36,487 nucleotides of DNA from Amylibacter sp. (GCA_016764475.1 JAESRV010000005.1:1-36487); one strand, 5' to 3'. Numbered from the stretch's first letter, positions 12,894-21,147 are shown. A program made the numbers and translations. The notes: generated from the sequence alone by a model not told the origin.

Positions 12894-12913
12894 GGCCTGC
12901 AAGGGGCGGTACG

Positions 12914-12925
12914 GGCTGAAGCCCT
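12914..12925. repeat. Short REP-like hairpin GGGCTGAAGCCC
   Basis: GGGC-TGAA-GCCC within a GC-rich intergenic stretch after the CsaA-like gene. Confidence 0.35.
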
Positions 12926-13014
12926 TCCTACGCCACGTTTTATCTTTTCACCCTAGCAACAAACTGTGCCACCCCCTATATTAGGTTTGTTACGAACAAT
13001 AATTGGGGGCGGGC

Positions 13015-13107
13015 ATGTCTGCCGCATCACTGCAATGGATTTCTTACTTTATTCTGGTTGCCATCATCTGGGTGGTTTCAGCCGGTGCTTATAGCGGGTC
13101 ATTGTAA
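13015..13107 (+). CDS. 30-aa single-TM microprotein, stop/start-coupled to the XpaC-like gene
   Basis: MSAASLQWISYFILVAIIWVVSAGAYSGSL*; stop TAA (13105-13107) overlaps the next ATG (13107) as TAATG; preceded by a G-rich stretch (gggggcgggcATG). Below the ORF-track size cutoff. Confidence 0.6.
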   Translation: MSAASLQWISYFILVAIIWVVSAGAYSGSL

Positions 13108-14012
13108 TGACCCAGCGTTATGGTGGAAAATTTAGCCCGCAAGGCGCGCCTGATACGGCTGCGGCCCCGCCTAAAAACAGGTTTCGCGGCAAAAAAGCCT
13201 ATCAATCCAACATCCGCGCCAAGCTGCTGTTTCTGATCCCGTTGCCTTTGTTGTTCTCTGGCATTGGGGAATTAAAGGCAGAAAACAGTATTGGCATGAT
13301 ATTTGAATGGGGTGCATTGGCGGCTTTATTATTGGCCGCATGGTTGTTGCGCGACGGGCTGGAAGCTGAGGCCACTTATAATGCGCGCAAAGTTGCCCGC
13401 CCGCCTGCGATACCACGCAAGATATTTGCCTCTGTGCTGACGGGTGCCGGTGTGACATTGGCAGCCTTTGGTGGCGCACATGTCGCGCTGTTTTCCAGTC
13501 TGGTTTTCGGGGCGGCTGCCGCGATTGCGCATAGCTTAAGCTTTGGCCTAGACCCAATGCGGCGCAAAGGCATGGAAGGGTTTGATGCGTTTGAAAACGA
13601 CCGTGTGGTGAAAGCCGTGGAACGGGCGGAAAAACTGTTGGCGGAAACCATCAGTGCTTCCCACAAATTCAACGACCGCGCCCTTGAAGGCCGCATTGAA
13701 AGTCTGGCGTCAACCGCACGCGATATGTTTCGCACTGTCGAAGAAGACCCGCGCGACTTGGCGCGTGCGCGCAAGTTCATGGGGGTCTATCTGAAAGGTG
13801 CGCGTGATGCCACGATCAAGTTTGCCGATTTATACGCGCGGAAGCGCGATACCGCCGCGCGCGCGGATTACGAAGCACTTCTAAGTGATTTGGAACAAAG
13901 CTTTGTATCCCACCAACAAACATTACTTCTGGATGACCGCAGTGATCTGGATGTTGAAATAGAAGTTTTACGAGACAGACTGAAACAAGAAGGCCTAACC
14001 GCCAAACGATAG
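13107..14012 (+). CDS. XpaC-like 5-bromo-4-chloroindolyl phosphate hydrolysis family protein
   Basis: N-terminal TM pair then a coiled region (NDRALEGRIESLASTARDMFRTVEEDPRDLARARKFMGVYLKGARDATIKFADLYA) typical of XpaC; adjacent to TelA. Confidence 0.85.
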   Translation: MTQRYGGKFSPQGAPDTAAAPPKNRFRGKKAYQSNIRAKLLFLIPLPLLFSGIGELKAENSIGMIFEWGALAALLLAAWLLRDGLEAEATYNARKVARPPAIPRKIFASVLTGAGVTLAAFGGAHVALFSSLVFGAAAAIAHSLSFGLDPMRRKGMEGFDAFENDRVVKAVERAEKLLAETISASHKFNDRALEGRIESLASTARDMFRTVEEDPRDLARARKFMGVYLKGARDATIKFADLYARKRDTAARADYEALLSDLEQSFVSHQQTLLLDDRSDLDVEIEVLRDRLKQEGLTAKR

Positions 14013-14022
14013 GAGACATTTA

Positions 14023-15207
14023 ATGTCAGATGATACCCGCAAAAAGGCCGGAACAACGCTTAAAGAAGTTGAAAAAGTAACCGCTGCGGTTTTACCCGAA
14101 CCCAAGGGTGAATTGATTGTTGTGTCTGAGGTGAAGCCGGATCAGAAAAAAGTCATCAAATCGCGTATGGCTGAAATTGACATCGGCAACACCCAGTCGA
14201 TCATCGAATTTGGCTCGAAAGCCCAAGCGGAATTGCAGCTTATCAGCCGGGAAATGTTGGCCGGCGTGCGTAACAAAGATGTAGGCCCTGCGGGCGACAG
14301 TCTGCGTGACATGGTCAGTTCCATTCGCGGGTTTTCGGTGGATGAGCTGAACCCGAACCGCCGACGCAGTTGGTGGGAACGCCTGAGGGGCAAAGCCACA
14401 CCTGTGGCAAAATTCATGGCACGCTATGAAACTGTGCAAGGCCAGATTGACAAGATCACCGATGATCTACTGGATCATGAACATATTTTGCTGAAAGACA
14501 TCAAATCACTGGATAAGCTATACGGTAAAACGCTGGCTTTTTATGATGAGCTGGCAATCTATATCGCGGCTGGCGAAGAGAAGATCAAAGAGCTGGATGC
14601 GAAAACCATCCCCGCCAAGGAAAAACAGGTGGCCAATGCGCCCAAAGACAAAGGTGTGATCAAAGCGCAGGAACTGCGCGATCTGCGATCAGCGCGTGAC
14701 GATCTGGAACGCCGGGTGCATGATTTGAAACTGACACGCCAAGTGACCATGCAATCTTTGCCCTCTATCCGCTTGGTGCAGGAAAACGATAAATCCCTTG
14801 TGACCAAGATCAACTCAACGCTGGTCAATACCGTGCCACTTTGGGAAACCCAGTTGGCGCAAGCTGTGACCATTCACCGGTCCCGTGAAGCCGCCATAGT
14901 GGTGAAAGAAGCTAATGATCTGACCAATGAATTGCTGGAAAGCAATGCCGAAAACCTGCAAGTAGCCAACCGCGAGGTGCGCAAGCAGATGGAACGTTCG
15001 GTGTTTGATATTGATAGTATCCGCAAAGCCAATGAATATCTGATCGCCACCATTGAAGAAAGTCTGGTGATTGCCGATGAAGGTAAAGCCCGACGTGCGG
15101 ATGCGGAAAAAGAGCTGGAGGTTCTGGAAGGTAAGTTGAAAGAAACTTTATCAGCGGCAAAAGCACCCAAAAAGACCACGCCGAAACCCAAAGCCGCGAA
15201 TGGTTGA
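14023..15207 (+). CDS. Toxic anion resistance protein, TelA family
   Basis: IIEFGSKAQAELQLISREMLAGVRNKDVGPAGDSLRDMVSSIRGF...LTRQVTMQSLPSIRLVQENDKSLVTKINSTLVNTVPLWETQLAQAVT is characteristic of TelA. Confidence 0.95.
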   Translation: MSDDTRKKAGTTLKEVEKVTAAVLPEPKGELIVVSEVKPDQKKVIKSRMAEIDIGNTQSIIEFGSKAQAELQLISREMLAGVRNKDVGPAGDSLRDMVSSIRGFSVDELNPNRRRSWWERLRGKATPVAKFMARYETVQGQIDKITDDLLDHEHILLKDIKSLDKLYGKTLAFYDELAIYIAAGEEKIKELDAKTIPAKEKQVANAPKDKGVIKAQELRDLRSARDDLERRVHDLKLTRQVTMQSLPSIRLVQENDKSLVTKINSTLVNTVPLWETQLAQAVTIHRSREAAIVVKEANDLTNELLESNAENLQVANREVRKQMERSVFDIDSIRKANEYLIATIEESLVIADEGKARRADAEKELEVLEGKLKETLSAAKAPKKTTPKPKAANG

Positions 15208-15220
15208 AAATAGCACAAAT

Positions 15221-15244
15221 GGAACGCGGCCCTTGCGGCGTTCC
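15221..15244. promoter_or_regulatory. Stem-loop GGAACGC-N10-GCGTTCC between telA-like and DUF2927 genes (possible processing or attenuation site)
   Basis: 7-bp perfect stem; no strong T-run follows, so not called as a terminator. Confidence 0.4.
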
Positions 15245-15268
15245 TAAATTGCTTTCATAGTCACCCCC

Positions 15269-16198
15269 ATGCGTTTCATAACCCTCATTACCAGCATATT
15301 TATCGGGCTTTCCGCCTGCACCCCTTTGCCTGGGCTGACCAAGCAGCAACCAAGACCCAAAAATCTTACCTCGCCCGGCCCTTCGGTGGAAAGCCAGAAA
15401 GTGGCCAACTATTACGCCAGCGTGCAGGCCCGCTTGCGCGCGCGTGGGCGGTTGCGTCAGGAACTTTCCCCAAGTGATGCGCGTTTTACAACACAAGATC
15501 TGATCACAAACTTTGAACGCGTGGCCCTGTTTGACGAATATTCCGAACGCGGCGGCAAATTCATTGAGCGCCAAACCCCCAGCAGTTTGCGCCGTTGGGA
15601 ACGCCCGGTGCGCATTGCTTTGCATTTCGGCCCGTCCACCAGTAAAGAACAGCGCGCGGCAGACACCGCCTATGTGCGCAACTTTGCCACCCGCCTGGCG
15701 CGGCTTTCCGGCCTTGATATCCAGTTGACGGATGCAAAACGGGCTAACTTTTCACTGCTGTTTTTGAATAAAGATGAACAACGAGATTACATATCCGAGC
15801 TGGTTGGGCAGGTGAAGTATCTGATACCGAAAATTTCCAACGAGATTAAAAATAGCCCACGGGGTATATTTTGTGTGGCTTATGCCGTGTCTGACAGCAA
15901 TTCCCTAGCCGGTTACAAAGGGGTGATTATTCTGATCAAAGGCGAACATCGCGGATTGATGCGTGAATCGTGTATTCATGAAGAAATGACCCAAGCTTTG
16001 GGTCTGGCAAACGACAGCCCCGATGCGCGGCCTTCCATTTTCAATGATGACGAAGAATTTGCCCTGCTGACACGCCATGACGAGCTGTTGTTGAAAATGC
16101 TTTATGACCCACGCTTAAAAATCGGGATGACGATAAAAGAGGCACATCCAATCGTGCAACAGATCGCACAAGAGTTAATGGCCCTAGGGCGCAGCTAA
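15269..16198 (+). CDS. DUF2927 domain-containing putative lipoprotein
   Basis: N-terminal lipobox-like IFIGLSAC; FTTQDLITNFERVALFDEYSERGGKFIERQTPSSLRRWERPVRIALHFG and a late CIHEEMTQALGLANDS motif. Confidence 0.85.
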   Translation: MRFITLITSIFIGLSACTPLPGLTKQQPRPKNLTSPGPSVESQKVANYYASVQARLRARGRLRQELSPSDARFTTQDLITNFERVALFDEYSERGGKFIERQTPSSLRRWERPVRIALHFGPSTSKEQRAADTAYVRNFATRLARLSGLDIQLTDAKRANFSLLFLNKDEQRDYISELVGQVKYLIPKISNEIKNSPRGIFCVAYAVSDSNSLAGYKGVIILIKGEHRGLMRESCIHEEMTQALGLANDSPDARPSIFNDDEEFALLTRHDELLLKMLYDPRLKIGMTIKEAHPIVQQIAQELMALGRS

Positions 16199-16213
16199 AA
16201 CAGGAGATTTACC

Positions 16214-17323
16214 ATGGGTATTCTGGATTTTATAACCGGCGAATTTATTGACGTTATCCACTGGACGGATGACACCGATGACACATTGGTCTGGCGTTTT
16301 GAACGTGAGGGGCATGAAATCAAGTACGGCGCCAAACTGACCGTGCGCGAAGGCCAAGCTGCCGTTTTGATCCATGAAGGTCAGTTGGCGGATGTGTTCA
16401 CGCCCGGGCTTTATATGCTTGAAACCAACAACATGCCGATCCTGACCACGTTGCAACACTGGGATCACGGCTTTGAAAGCCCGTTCAAGTCGGAAGTTTA
16501 TTTCGTTAACACCACCCGCTTTCAGGATCTGAAATGGGGCACGAAAAACCCCGTGATCGTGCGCGACCCCGAGTTTGGCCCCTTGCGCATTCGCGCTTAT
16601 GGTACCTATGAGGTCAAGGTCTCTGATCCTGCCCTGTTCCTGACCGAGATTGTGGGTACTGACGGCGAGTTTACCATGGATGAAATATCTTATGCGATCC
16701 GCAACATCATCGTATCGCGGTTTTCTGCCGCCGTGGCTGCAAGTGGCATTCCTATCTTGGATATGGCCGCTAACACGTTTGATCTGGGCAAATTGCTGGC
16801 TACACGGATTGCGCCCGAGGTTGCTGAATTCGGGCTGGAACTGCCGAAACTTTATATCGAGAACATCTCTATGCCGCCCGCCGTTGAGGCGGCGTTGGAT
16901 AAGCGCACCTCAATCGGGATTGTCGGGGATTTGAACAGCTACACGCAATATGCCGCCGCCGAAGCAATGTCGGATGCCGCCAAAAACCCAAGCGGTGGCA
17001 TGGGGGCAGGGCTTGGTATGGGCATGGGCATCGCAATGGCCGCAAGCGGCCCTTGGGGGCCGCGCCCGACCGTTGCCGCAAGCGTAGCGCCGCAAATGCC
17101 GCCACCGCCGCCGCCTGTGGAACGGGTTTGGCATATAGCGGATCAGGGTAAAACCACAGGGCCGTTTTCTAAGGCCCATTTGGGCCGTATGGCGGCAGAC
17201 GGCAGCTTGCAACGCGGTACATATGTTTGGTCAGTCGGGCTGGACGGATGGCAAACGGCGGGCGATATTAATGAGCTGGCACAGCTGTTCACCATCGCGC
17301 CACCCCCCTTGCCAAAAGGTTAA
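16214..17323 (+). CDS. SPFH-domain (YdjI/virion-core-like) protein with C-terminal GYF_2 domain
   Basis: MGILDFITGEFIDVIHWTDDTDDTLVWRFEREGHEIKYGAKLTVREGQAAVLIHEGQLADVFTPGLYMLET SPFH region; Gly/Met-rich then Pro-rich linker; C-terminal VWHIADQGKTTGPFSKAHLGRMAADGSLQRGTYVWSVGLDGWQTAGDI GYF-like module. Confidence 0.9.
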   Translation: MGILDFITGEFIDVIHWTDDTDDTLVWRFEREGHEIKYGAKLTVREGQAAVLIHEGQLADVFTPGLYMLETNNMPILTTLQHWDHGFESPFKSEVYFVNTTRFQDLKWGTKNPVIVRDPEFGPLRIRAYGTYEVKVSDPALFLTEIVGTDGEFTMDEISYAIRNIIVSRFSAAVAASGIPILDMAANTFDLGKLLATRIAPEVAEFGLELPKLYIENISMPPAVEAALDKRTSIGIVGDLNSYTQYAAAEAMSDAAKNPSGGMGAGLGMGMGIAMAASGPWGPRPTVAASVAPQMPPPPPPVERVWHIADQGKTTGPFSKAHLGRMAADGSLQRGTYVWSVGLDGWQTAGDINELAQLFTIAPPPLPKG

Positions 17324-17329
17324 TGCAAT

Positions 17330-18439
17330 ATGGCCGATACGGTCGAAGAACATAAATTTCCCTGCGATACCTGCGGCTCTGACCTGCGTTACAGCCCGGG
17401 CGAAACCCATTTGGAATGCGATCATTGCGGGGCGATAAAAGAGATCACCCATCAGGGCGGTTGGCGCGGGCAATCCATTCGTGAAATGGATTTTCGCAAG
17501 GCGGTAAAAGACCAACTGGCAGAGTTTGATATGGAAGAACTGCGCACGGTTTCTTGTGAAAACTGCGGCGCACATGTGACGTTTGAACCCAACACCCACG
17601 CCGCTGAATGCCCGTTTTGTGCCACCCCTGTGGTCACGGATACAGGGCTTGATCGCCAGATCAAACCCAAAGCTTTGCTGCCCTTTGGTCTGTCGGAACG
17701 GGATGCGCGTAAAAATATGACAGACTGGTTGGGAAAACTTTGGTTTGCCCCAAATGGTCTACAGAATTACGCCCGTAAGGGGCGAAAAATGCAGGGTATT
17801 TATGTGCCTTACTGGACGTATGATGCCGAAACAAAATCCACCTATTCGGGGGAACGCGGCACGATTTATTATGTCACCAAACGGGTCAGCGTCATGGTCA
17901 ACGGCAAACGTCAAACCCAAACCCGCCAAGTGCCAAAAACACGTTGGCGGTCCGCACGGGGCCGTGTGGCGCGGTTTTTTGATGATGTACTGGTCTTGGC
18001 TTCTAAAAGCCTGCCCAAGAAATACACCGATGCGCTGGCCCCTTGGGATCTGTCCGAAATGGAACCTTATCGCCCCGAGTATCTGGCAGGGTTTCGCGCC
18101 GAAAGCTACACCGTGGCACTGGATGAGGGCTATGATGAGGCCCGCGATTATATGAACCGTATGATCGTGCGTGATGTGAAATTCGACATCGGCGGGGATC
18201 GTCAGCGCATTCATACGCTGGATACGGATGTGGGTCTGCTTACTTTCAAACACATCCTGCTGCCGGTCTGGCTGGCCGCTTATAAATACCGTGGTAAAAC
18301 ATATCGTTTCGTGGTCAATGGGCGCACGGGTAAAGTGCAAGGTGCGCGGCCCTATTCGGTCTGGAAGATCAGCTTTGCGGTAATTGCGGGTGCCCTTGCC
18401 ATGGCCGCGATTGGCTATATCATCGCCCAGAACCAATAG
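17330..18439 (+). CDS. Zinc-ribbon protein with C-terminal TM helix (YdjG-like; often labelled primosomal N'-like)
   Basis: Two CxxC-N-CxxC ribbons (CDTCGSDLRYSPGETHLECDHCG; CENCGAHVTFEPNTHAAECPFC), a central beta-rich domain and C-terminal hydrophobic helix ISFAVIAGALAMAAIGYII. Confidence 0.85.
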   Translation: MADTVEEHKFPCDTCGSDLRYSPGETHLECDHCGAIKEITHQGGWRGQSIREMDFRKAVKDQLAEFDMEELRTVSCENCGAHVTFEPNTHAAECPFCATPVVTDTGLDRQIKPKALLPFGLSERDARKNMTDWLGKLWFAPNGLQNYARKGRKMQGIYVPYWTYDAETKSTYSGERGTIYYVTKRVSVMVNGKRQTQTRQVPKTRWRSARGRVARFFDDVLVLASKSLPKKYTDALAPWDLSEMEPYRPEYLAGFRAESYTVALDEGYDEARDYMNRMIVRDVKFDIGGDRQRIHTLDTDVGLLTFKHILLPVWLAAYKYRGKTYRFVVNGRTGKVQGARPYSVWKISFAVIAGALAMAAIGYIIAQNQ

Positions 18440-18452
18440 GATAAACCGCCCC

Positions 18453-19199
18453 ATGTTCCCGATCCGCGATCACAACCCATCCGGCCGCCGCCCTTATGTG
18501 ACTTGGGGGCTGATTGCGACCAATATAGTTGTTTTTGTGATGTATTTTCCGATTATGGGCAACGATGCCGCCCTGGCATCCTTGTGGAATAATTGGGCTA
18601 TGGTGCCTGCACGGATCAGTGCGGGGATGGATTATCACACGGCTTTTACATCATTGTTCTTACATGCGGGCTTGATGCATTTAGGCGGTAACATGCTGTT
18701 TTTATGGATATTTGGCGACAATGTAGAAGATGCTATGGGGCATGTGCCGTTCTTGCTGTTTTATTTGGCAAGCGGGTTTGGTGCTGATTTTTTTCATATC
18801 CTGTCTGCCCCCAATTCGGGCATACCCACCGTGGGGGCGTCAGGTGCTATTGCGGGTGTATTAGGGGCATATTTACTGCTTTACCCCAAGGCCAAGGTGG
18901 ATGTGGTTCTGATTTTTATCATCTTTTTTAAAACCTTCAAATGGCCCGCGTGGATTGTTTTGGGCGCATGGATGGTGATGCAGATATTCGGCGGTGTGGG
19001 CACATCTGCCGCAAGCGGCGGTGTTGCCTATTGGGCCCATATTGGCGGCTTTATCACCGGGATGGCTTTGACGGTGCCAGTATGGCTGCGCTTGGGCGGG
19101 CAGGGGTTCTGGCGTAAAAACGATTTTCACCCACCCCATGCGCCCAGGTTTGAGACCAGCACAACATCCATCCCGACAGTTAGAAGGCGACTACCATGA
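18453..19199 (+). CDS. Rhomboid family intramembrane serine protease
   Basis: HLGGNMLFLWIFGDNVED, catalytic GASGAIAGVLGAYL, C-terminal YWAHIGGFITGMAL. Start MFPIRDHNPSGRRPYVTWGLI preferred over the ORF-track start at 18384. Confidence 0.95.
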   Translation: MFPIRDHNPSGRRPYVTWGLIATNIVVFVMYFPIMGNDAALASLWNNWAMVPARISAGMDYHTAFTSLFLHAGLMHLGGNMLFLWIFGDNVEDAMGHVPFLLFYLASGFGADFFHILSAPNSGIPTVGASGAIAGVLGAYLLLYPKAKVDVVLIFIIFFKTFKWPAWIVLGAWMVMQIFGGVGTSAASGGVAYWAHIGGFITGMALTVPVWLRLGGQGFWRKNDFHPPHAPRFETSTTSIPTVRRRLP

Positions 19200-19579
19200 A
19201 TGACTGGACAAAACTGACCTGCCATTGTGGCGCGGTTGAATTGCGTGTGAAACTGGCAGACGGGTTGAACTCCGCGCGACGGTGCAACTGTTCATTTTGT
19301 CGCCGTCGCGGGGCAATCGCGGCAACAGCTGCCTACCCTGACGGGGTTGAGATTGTAAAAGGCGCAGATAAAATCACGCTTTATCAGTGGGGTACAAAAA
19401 CTGCCGAGCATTACTTTTGTTCTGTTTGCGGCAACTACACCCACCACCGCAGACGATCAAACCCCAACCAATACGGTGTTAGCGTTGGCGCGTTGGAAGG
19501 TGTTGATCCGGCCCAATTAGACGATGTAATCTGGGAAGACGGGGTAAACCACCCCAGTGACCGCAAAAAACCATCTTAA
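19196..19579 (+). CDS. GFA family (glutathione-dependent formaldehyde-activating-like) zinc protein
   Basis: CHCGAVELRVKL, RRCNCSFCRRRGA, HYFCSVCGNYTHHRRRSNP; start overlaps the rhomboid stop (ATGA). Confidence 0.9.
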   Translation: MNDWTKLTCHCGAVELRVKLADGLNSARRCNCSFCRRRGAIAATAAYPDGVEIVKGADKITLYQWGTKTAEHYFCSVCGNYTHHRRRSNPNQYGVSVGALEGVDPAQLDDVIWEDGVNHPSDRKKPS

Positions 19580-20052: not shown

Positions 20053-21147
20053 ATGGCTCTTATCCTGGATTGGGACAACATTGGCAGTTCAAACGGATCG
20101 ACCACCGTCACAAACGGTACCGATAGTGTTAATGTGACCATAAGTACGCCGGGCAGCCCGTTTTATAACGCTTTTGGCGGCGGGGCTATTTGGGGTTCCA
20201 ATATCAGCACACCGCAAACCTCTACCCTTACATTTGACACGCCTGTCAAAAATGTGACCTTTGAAATTTATGATCTTGATGCCAATGGTACCGCATGGTC
20301 CGACAGCGTGACAATCAATGCGATTGATAAAGACGGCAACCCTGTCAGCATTTCGTTTTCCGATCTGGAAGCTTACCATATACAAACAGGTAACACGGTT
20401 TCGGCCACCGGCAACAGTGGCACGAGTATTGATACATCAGGTGCGCCCGACAGTATTACCGTGACCATACCCGGCCCGCTTACCCAAATTCAGGTAATGT
20501 ATGATAACGGCCCAACCGCCACCTCTTCAGGGGCGTTCGGCTGGGGGGCTACCACGTTTGATGTGGTTTGTTTTACCAAAGACGTGTTGATTACCACGCC
20601 ATCAGGGGATCGCCTGGTTCAGGGTTTAGCGGTTGGCGATCTGGTATTAACCCGTGATCACGGGCTTCAGGCCATTCGCTGGATCGGGCATAAAAGCCTG
20701 ACGGGGGCACGGCTTTATGCCAGCCCGAACCTGCGCCCGGTCACGATTAAAAAAGATACCTATGGTGCAGGCATTCCGGCACAGGACTTAAGCGTGTCAC
20801 CACAGCACCGCATTCTAATAAAAAACAGTGATACTGTGCTGATGTTCAATCAGTCAGAAGTTCTGGCACCGGCAAAAGGTCTGGTCAATGACACTGATAT
20901 ATTTGTGAATGACACAGTCACCTCGGTAGAGTATTATCACATCATGTTTGATCACCACGAGGTGATCTATTCAAATGGCATGCCGACCGAAAGCTTCCAA
21001 CCCAGTGACCGCTCGCTTCTGGCTTTCGACCAAGATATCCGCAATGAGCTTTTCACACTATTCCCGGAACTGAAAGAAAACGCACATGCTGCCAATACAC
21101 CTGCGCGTCACAGTTTGAATGTGCAGGAAACCCGCCTGATAGCGTGA
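20053..21147 (+). CDS. Hint-domain (Hedgehog/intein) protein
   Basis: Beta-rich N-terminal domain (~175 aa) then VVCFTKDVLITTPSGDRLVQGLAVGDLVLTRDHGLQAIRWIG ... SPQHRILI ... YYHIMFDHHEVIYSNGMPTESF, typical of Rhodobacterales Hint proteins. Confidence 0.92.
   Translation: MALILDWDNIGSSNGSTTVTNGTDSVNVTISTPGSPFYNAFGGGAIWGSNISTPQTSTLTFDTPVKNVTFEIYDLDANGTAWSDSVTINAIDKDGNPVSISFSDLEAYHIQTGNTVSATGNSGTSIDTSGAPDSITVTIPGPLTQIQVMYDNGPTATSSGAFGWGATTFDVVCFTKDVLITTPSGDRLVQGLAVGDLVLTRDHGLQAIRWIGHKSLTGARLYASPNLRPVTIKKDTYGAGIPAQDLSVSPQHRILIKNSDTVLMFNQSEVLAPAKGLVNDTDIFVNDTVTSVEYYHIMFDHHEVIYSNGMPTESFQPSDRSLLAFDQDIRNELFTLFPELKENAHAANTPARHSLNVQETRLIA

Follow-up and report, generated by a model that had tools for sequence, protein, structure and literature searches.

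A conserved alphaproteobacterial operon that combines XpaC and TelA with an SPFH/zinc-ribbon pair: a candidate PspA-independent membrane-surveillance module

In a stretch of 36,487 nucleotides from Amylibacter sp. (GCA_016764475.1 JAESRV010000005.1:1-36487), referred to here as the window, we analyzed an operon whose core unit, XpaC-TelA-SPFH/GYF-zinc ribbon, consists of two combined sub-modules with a microprotein ahead of XpaC. We describe it as a combination because both pairs also occur separately: SPFH-zinc ribbon pairs without TelA were found elsewhere in the phylum (L169, L170, L173, L175-L178, and L180), as were TelA/XpaC genes without SPFH (L152, L156, L161, L162, L164, L168, and L188). 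This combination of known sub-modules is widely conserved and apparently undescribed. A preliminary description of this DNA, made from the sequence alone, had suggested that the unit was new; in accordance, we found no paper that names TelA, XpaC, and SPFH together, or TelA with SPFH, and TelA is not mentioned in two published surveys of phage shock protein (PSP) systems. Because of its analogy with the pspA-ydjGHI operon of Bacillus subtilis, we propose that the operon may serve membrane surveillance or as a scaffold for envelope stress, independently of PspA, with a probability of about 0.5.

Conservation and co-inheritance

To describe the gene neighborhood, 120 Rhodobacteraceae loci were read as sets of 40 and 80, which overlap, some contigs recurring in both. 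XpaC and TelA were found together in all 120 loci, with XpaC upstream, accompanied by the SPFH gene in 114 and the zinc-ribbon gene in 104, and in every case the genes shared one strand; several of the member gaps are contig ends. The order XpaC-TelA-DUF2927-SPFH-zinc ribbon was present in nearly all of these loci, and its recurrence in about 100 genera indicates that it is not due to chance. The zinc-ribbon gene adjoins the SPFH gene in this family and beyond, and XpaC-TelA-SPFH-zinc ribbon without DUF2927 was observed in four other alphaproteobacterial families (L154; L155; L157/L160; L159). The comparison across Rhodobacterales that the preliminary description had proposed thus revealed a neighborhood that is kept far beyond close relatives (120 loci, 101 genera, and four further families).

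The genes for TelA, SPFH, and the zinc-ribbon protein were present in 90, 89, and 89 of 101 Rhodobacteraceae genera, respectively. TelA and SPFH were both present in 89 genera and both absent from 11, with a single discordant genome (G099), in which TelA sits at a contig end (p = 7.6e-14; this and all co-inheritance p-values are indicative only, since genera cannot be counted as independent events). The zinc-ribbon gene and TelA were both present in 87 genera and both missing from 9. Two TelA-less genomes contained the zinc-ribbon gene (G022 and G096, at a contig start in both cases), and it was absent beside TelA in three genomes with a completeness of at most 83%. Gene order and the co-loss of members thus bear out the earlier proposal of one operon-like unit.

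Two further arrangements were noted. In L187 (6513-9332), which belongs to another class of the phylum, a 27-amino-acid hydrophobic open reading frame (ORF) lies ahead of XpaC-TelA, and the gene after the pair encodes a GYF protein that matches Band_7 weakly; this is possibly an independent equivalent. Upstream of XpaC, at a distance of about 1 kb, a further XpaC-like ORF was seen in L039, L052, L054, L057, L066, L123, L128, L132, L133, L143, and L147.

A microprotein and a promoter-like motif precede xpaC

The ORF ahead of xpaC encodes a predicted single-helix microprotein that is too short for routine annotation and is unannotated. Three lines of sequence evidence lead us to regard it as a real gene. 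A comparable short transmembrane (TM) ORF is present ahead of XpaC in about 105 of the 120 Rhodobacteraceae loci. A strict test was positive at 92 of 129 xpaC genes versus 5 of 1,704 other genes, a contrast that is large, although the thresholds were set after the site had been seen. Among close relatives, changes were chiefly synonymous (proportions of synonymous differences, pS, of 0.22 to 0.61, against nonsynonymous, pN, of 0.045 to 0.12). The size ranges from 24 to 33 amino acids (one helix, preceding XpaC), and in some genera the microprotein forms the second half of a two-helix ORF of 62 to 73 amino acids. Short hydrophobic ORFs also precede XpaC in the modules of other families (L154, L155, and L160) and in L187, without clear sequence similarity; most of these failed the strict test.

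Upstream of the microprotein lies a promoter-like dyad (Table 1). Its longer form, CCTAGC-N17-CCTAWRTT, had this site as its one match in the genome, and 12 of its 15 matches in the 101 genomes were upstream of a TelA operon. The shorter form, CTAG-N18-CCTA, occurred 43 times in operon upstream regions versus 3 times elsewhere in 3.85 Mb. Judged from these sequence counts, the dyad is an operon-specific promoter-like motif and, at the stringency used, not a regulon motif. Scans for sigma-70 promoters and terminators returned sites that were no commoner than in shuffled sequences. Directly ahead of the dyad we noted a palindrome-containing element of 23 nucleotides (nt) (GTAGGAAGGGCTTCAGCCCGTAC, 12909-12931). 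The operon-specific motif and the near-universal microprotein, along with the TerC neighbor considered below, go beyond the preliminary description.

Organization of the locus and properties of the core proteins

Genes and junctions were re-read from the sequence, and ORF reading and Pfam searches placed each of them where the preliminary description had, with the same overlaps and gaps and all on the + strand. Its title named seven of the genes correctly and left out the eighth, which encodes a protein of the glutathione-dependent formaldehyde-activating (GFA) fold and starts within the rhomboid stop codon.

Table 1. Features of the operon in the window
Feature	Position	Strand	Remarks
Promoter-like dyad CCTAGC-N17-CCTATATT	12952-12982	+	Ends 32 nt ahead of microprotein start
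30-amino-acid single-TM microprotein MSAASLQWISYFILVAIIWVVSAGAYSGSL	13015-13107	+	Stop overlaps xpaC start (TAATG at 13105)
XpaC family (PF10112)	13107-14012	+	Pfam E 3.7e-24
TelA (PF05816)	14023-15207	+	Pfam E 3.4e-106; gap of 10 nt after XpaC
DUF2927 lipoprotein (PF11150)	15269-16198	+	Pfam E 9.5e-59; gap of 61 nt after TelA
SPFH-GYF	16214-17323	+	Band_7_1 PF13421 E 1e-98; GYF_2 PF14237 E 9e-18; gap of 15 nt
Zinc-ribbon/TM protein	17330-18439	+	Two four-Cys ribbons, C-terminal TM; gap of 6 nt after SPFH
Rhomboid protease	18453-19199	+	PF01694 E 2.2e-34; gap of 13 nt after zinc-ribbon gene
GFA-fold zinc protein	19196-19579	+	PF04828 E 2.5e-13; eighth gene; ATGA overlap at 19196

XpaC has hydrophobic segments at its N terminus that form a predicted membrane anchor. 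TelA, encoded by the sole copy in the genome, is all-helical, with a long predicted helical hairpin (residues 126-205 and 208-295) in an AlphaFold2 model with a predicted local distance difference test score (pLDDT) of 72 and a predicted template-modeling score (pTM) of 0.59. A comparison of TelA with XpaC revealed no homology.

The SPFH protein possesses a C-terminal GYF_2 domain and a proline-rich tail and has no evident TM segment; the B. subtilis genome used as a control also contains its family (PF13421). The C-terminal adaptor varies: GYF and proline tail are present in TelA modules and in some stand-alone SPFH-zinc ribbon pairs, and other tails occur in polyamine operons (L167, L182, L184, L186, and L191) and in L176-L178. 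With a GYF domain beside a conserved proline tail, the protein may associate with itself or serve in docking.

In the zinc-ribbon protein, two N-terminal four-Cys ribbons are followed by a middle domain and, at the C terminus, a single TM segment. Across 33 homologues, its eight cysteines (12/15/30/33 and 76/79/94/97) were either invariant or conserved to at least 90%, and the Pfam search gave no match over the cut-off. In a search of solved structures, the SPFH protein was matched by a GYF domain (7z3c), the zinc-ribbon protein by generic zinc ribbons, and TelA by generic helical structures only. In about 39 of the 120 loci, the SPFH and zinc-ribbon genes are separated by a gene of cytochrome b561 type or by a small membrane gene from a second family (for example, L133 12735-13217 and L044 3560-4006).

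DUF2927 is a family-specific insertion with a predicted metzincin-like fold

The DUF2927 protein, which carries the lipobox LSAC, was present in 116 of the 120 Rhodobacteraceae loci. Other families' modules lack it, as do the same-genus genome L172 and L076. It is thus a family-specific insertion that joined the operon in Rhodobacteraceae, and its membership, as proposed previously, holds for that family but not for the other families or for L172.

The top Foldseek matches to its structural model (pLDDT 84, pTM 0.80) were almost all catalytic domains of matrix metalloproteinases (MMPs), with a probability of about 1, a TMt of 0.5 to 0.6, and a best E value of 1.2e-3. Neither sequence profiles, in which no metzincin was retrieved, nor the solved-structure search provided a match. 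One helix contains the motif E238-E239-x-x-Q242-x-x-G245-x-x-[N/D]248, which is conserved in the alignment. When it is paired with the zinc motif HExxHxxGxxH/D by sequence reading, E, Q, and N/D stand where that motif has its three His ligands, and the catalytic Glu and the Gly are retained. A metzincin-like fold that lacks the zinc-binding histidines is thus predicted, and the protein may be either a pseudoenzyme or a binder of another metal. We found no literature on DUF2927.

Proposed function and alternative explanations

In B. subtilis, membrane localization of the SPFH protein YdjI depends on YdjG/H, and YdjI in turn brings PspA to the membrane (PMC8581546). Based on this precedent, we infer complex formation, a role in membrane stress, and a division of labor among the products. 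XpaC and the microprotein would be integral inner-membrane anchors and would recruit the long helical TelA to the cytosolic face. At the same face, the SPFH protein, which is soluble, would oligomerize, with its GYF domain and proline tail serving as an adaptor; the tail-anchored double-zinc-ribbon protein would be its partner in the membrane, corresponding to YdjG in its relation to YdjI. Under envelope stress, the assembled proteins might form membrane-associated clusters that stabilize the inner membrane or its protein machinery; in Rhodobacteraceae, the periplasmic DUF2927 lipoprotein may add an outside arm.

The preliminary description had proposed that the SPFH/zinc-ribbon pair is coupled to TelA/XpaC instead of PspA. 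This holds for the operon and for the genome, in which no match to PspA/IM30 (PF04012) was found (G000). PF04012 exceeded the cut-off in 21 of the 101 family genomes, 19 of which also carry the module, and the PspA gene was on other contigs or distant from the SPFH gene wherever positions were compared.

A number of observations weigh against the proposed function. TelA and PspA are not mutually exclusive across genomes (PspA in 19 of 90 genomes with TelA versus 2 of 11 without; Fisher p = 1). TelA was rejected as a PspA/ESCRT-III homologue, since the profile comparison with PspA yielded a probability of 4%. A Foldseek search with the TelA model, which is of moderate quality, produced generic helical matches, none with an E value below 1e-3, and PspA/Vipp1 was outside the top 50. 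Given that there is no profile or fold relation between the two proteins, the idea that TelA plays a PspA-like role rests on analogy. The zinc-ribbon protein is likened to YdjG on the basis of its architecture, in which two four-Cys ribbons are combined with a TM segment at the C terminus. Slow rearrangement within one family could explain part of the operon linkage, and no phenotype, expression, or interaction data for the module were found in the literature.

A more far-reaching version of the proposal, which we consider possible but on balance doubtful, is that in Rhodobacterales and several other alphaproteobacterial lineages TelA takes the place of PspA on an SPFH/zinc-ribbon platform that guards the inner membrane. 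This platform would be nucleated by XpaC and the near-universal one-helix microprotein of about 30 amino acids and extended to the periplasm by a zinc-ligand-free metzincin-fold lipoprotein.

Rather unlikely, in our view, is a metal-handling module whose genes support TerC-type export of manganese and the loading of exported proteins with metal (or, alternatively, resistance to tellurite/oxyanions), and in which DUF2927 would be a metalloprotein, either a partner or a client. TerC (PF03741) belongs to a manganese-transport/metalation family. It is directly upstream, on the same strand, in 37 of the 120 loci (the closest relatives, L072-L074 and L172, among them), and the E, Q, and N/D ligand set predicted for the MMP-like fold of DUF2927 would suit a hard metal over zinc. 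TerC proteins also metalate secreted enzymes, and their pull-downs contain the flotillins FloA/FloT (PMC10550928). However, the promoter-like motif separates TerC from the operon in those relatives, and TerC is linked neither to the modules of other families nor to the module in the window, where proC and a tRNA-binding-domain-like gene occupy its place. The genome's own TerC lies on contig C44:41-856 (L192), 41 bases from the contig end, with its usual upstream context kept; in relatives the operon comes next. Its separation reflects either a rearrangement or a misassembly; the 23-nt element was ruled out as a repeat behind it, being single-copy in the genome. Moreover, DUF2927 is dispensable (absent from L172 and L076), its similarity to MMPs is bounded by the E value given above, and metal binding is a prediction from the model.

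We judge it unlikely that XpaC-TelA and SPFH-zinc ribbon are two independent modules that share an operon by history, each with its own job. Each pair does occur alone, and in four genera the halves are apart yet both kept (G018, G062, and apparently G004 and G084). Against this stand the near-perfect co-loss and co-retention over the 101 genera, subject to the dependence among genera stated above, and the joined order kept in five families.

The rhomboid protease contains the GASG serine and AHIGG (C-terminal His) motifs in its translation and is, from these motifs, likely active; zinc ribbons, for their part, are able to bind protein or nucleic acid. It is nevertheless very improbable that the operon is regulatory, with either of them releasing a signal (regulated proteolysis) that controls stress genes, as the rhomboid is mainly confined to the Amylibacter clade, the module has no transcription factor, and the single promoter-like site per genome makes no regulon evident. 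The rhomboid gene was found in 7 or 8 of the 120 loci, nearly all of that clade, and in L172; its earlier inclusion in the system, as a possible regulator or processor, is not supported. The GFA gene was present in fewer loci (a handful), almost all from the same clade. Both are thus local, clade-specific additions, and the GFA gene is probably a passenger.

An ORF at 20053-21147 of the window has a motif that resembles, by eye, Hedgehog/intein (Hint) domains (VCFTKDVLITTPSGDRLVQGLAVGDLVLTRDHG). An anti-phage defense function was ruled out for the locus, PADLOC having given zero matches.

The links of TelA/XpaC to envelope stress and tellurite have lacked a mechanism, and the operon supplies concrete partners. 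Near-universal in an abundant family, it ties both proteins to a conserved microprotein and to a specific SPFH scaffold together with a membrane protein that bears zinc ribbons. If the proposed PspA-independent surveillance function is true, SPFH/zinc-ribbon platforms can work without PspA. Further gains are the one-helix microprotein itself and a predicted structural assignment for DUF2927.

Comparison with known systems

Ter stress networks share with the operon the TerC neighbor seen in part of the loci and missing beside the module in the window; this comparison covers TerC, not TerD-type genes. Some TelA/XpaC neighborhoods may already be listed in a 2012 paper on Ter-dependent stress systems.

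In Firmicutes, the same families (PF10112 and PF05816) are adjacent in the pairs lmo1966-1967 and llmg_1115-1116. The latter genes were raised in the transcriptome table of a CesSR envelope-stress study in Lactococcus lactis (PMC3139573). The former is the XpaC/TelA pair of Listeria (PMC12791056), for which a cited title states that TelA contributes to nisin resistance. As far as the consulted portions of these sources extend, no SPFH/zinc-ribbon genes and no microprotein are described with the pairs.

TelA and XpaC are also shared with operons of the type TelA-(SBP_bac_11+VWA)-XpaC (L156, L162, L164, L168, and L188) from other alphaproteobacteria, which differ in having a VWA protein between TelA and XpaC and no SPFH or zinc-ribbon protein. 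In these loci, and also in L171 and L179, we observed TelA, a solute-binding-fold+VWA protein, and XpaC, followed by an uncharacterized family of 361 to 374 amino acids.

The Band-7/DUF4178/DUF350/spermine-synthase operons (PMC11237479), seen in L167, L182, L186, and L191, contain the same SPFH family, but its C terminus is without GYF and its partners are polyamine genes, not TelA/XpaC. In L167, L182, L184-L186, and L191, the SPFH gene, with an altered C-terminal adaptor, was accompanied by zinc-ribbon/DUF4178, DUF350, spermine-synthase, and amine-oxidase genes.

The closest parallel in our proposal is the pspA-ydjGHI-type neighborhood (PMC11237479). Like that of B. subtilis, the present operon places a TM-less SPFH/Band_7 protein beside a TM protein with two zinc ribbons (PMC8581546, PMC11237479). 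pspA-ydjGHI also has the TPM-domain protein YdjH, whereas Pfam gave no TPM match among the operon genes of the window, and the B. subtilis SPFH counterpart is described with a C-terminal zinc ribbon where the present protein has GYF. Unlike pspA-ydjGHI, finally, the module is without PspA and instead has XpaC, TelA, the microprotein, and DUF2927.

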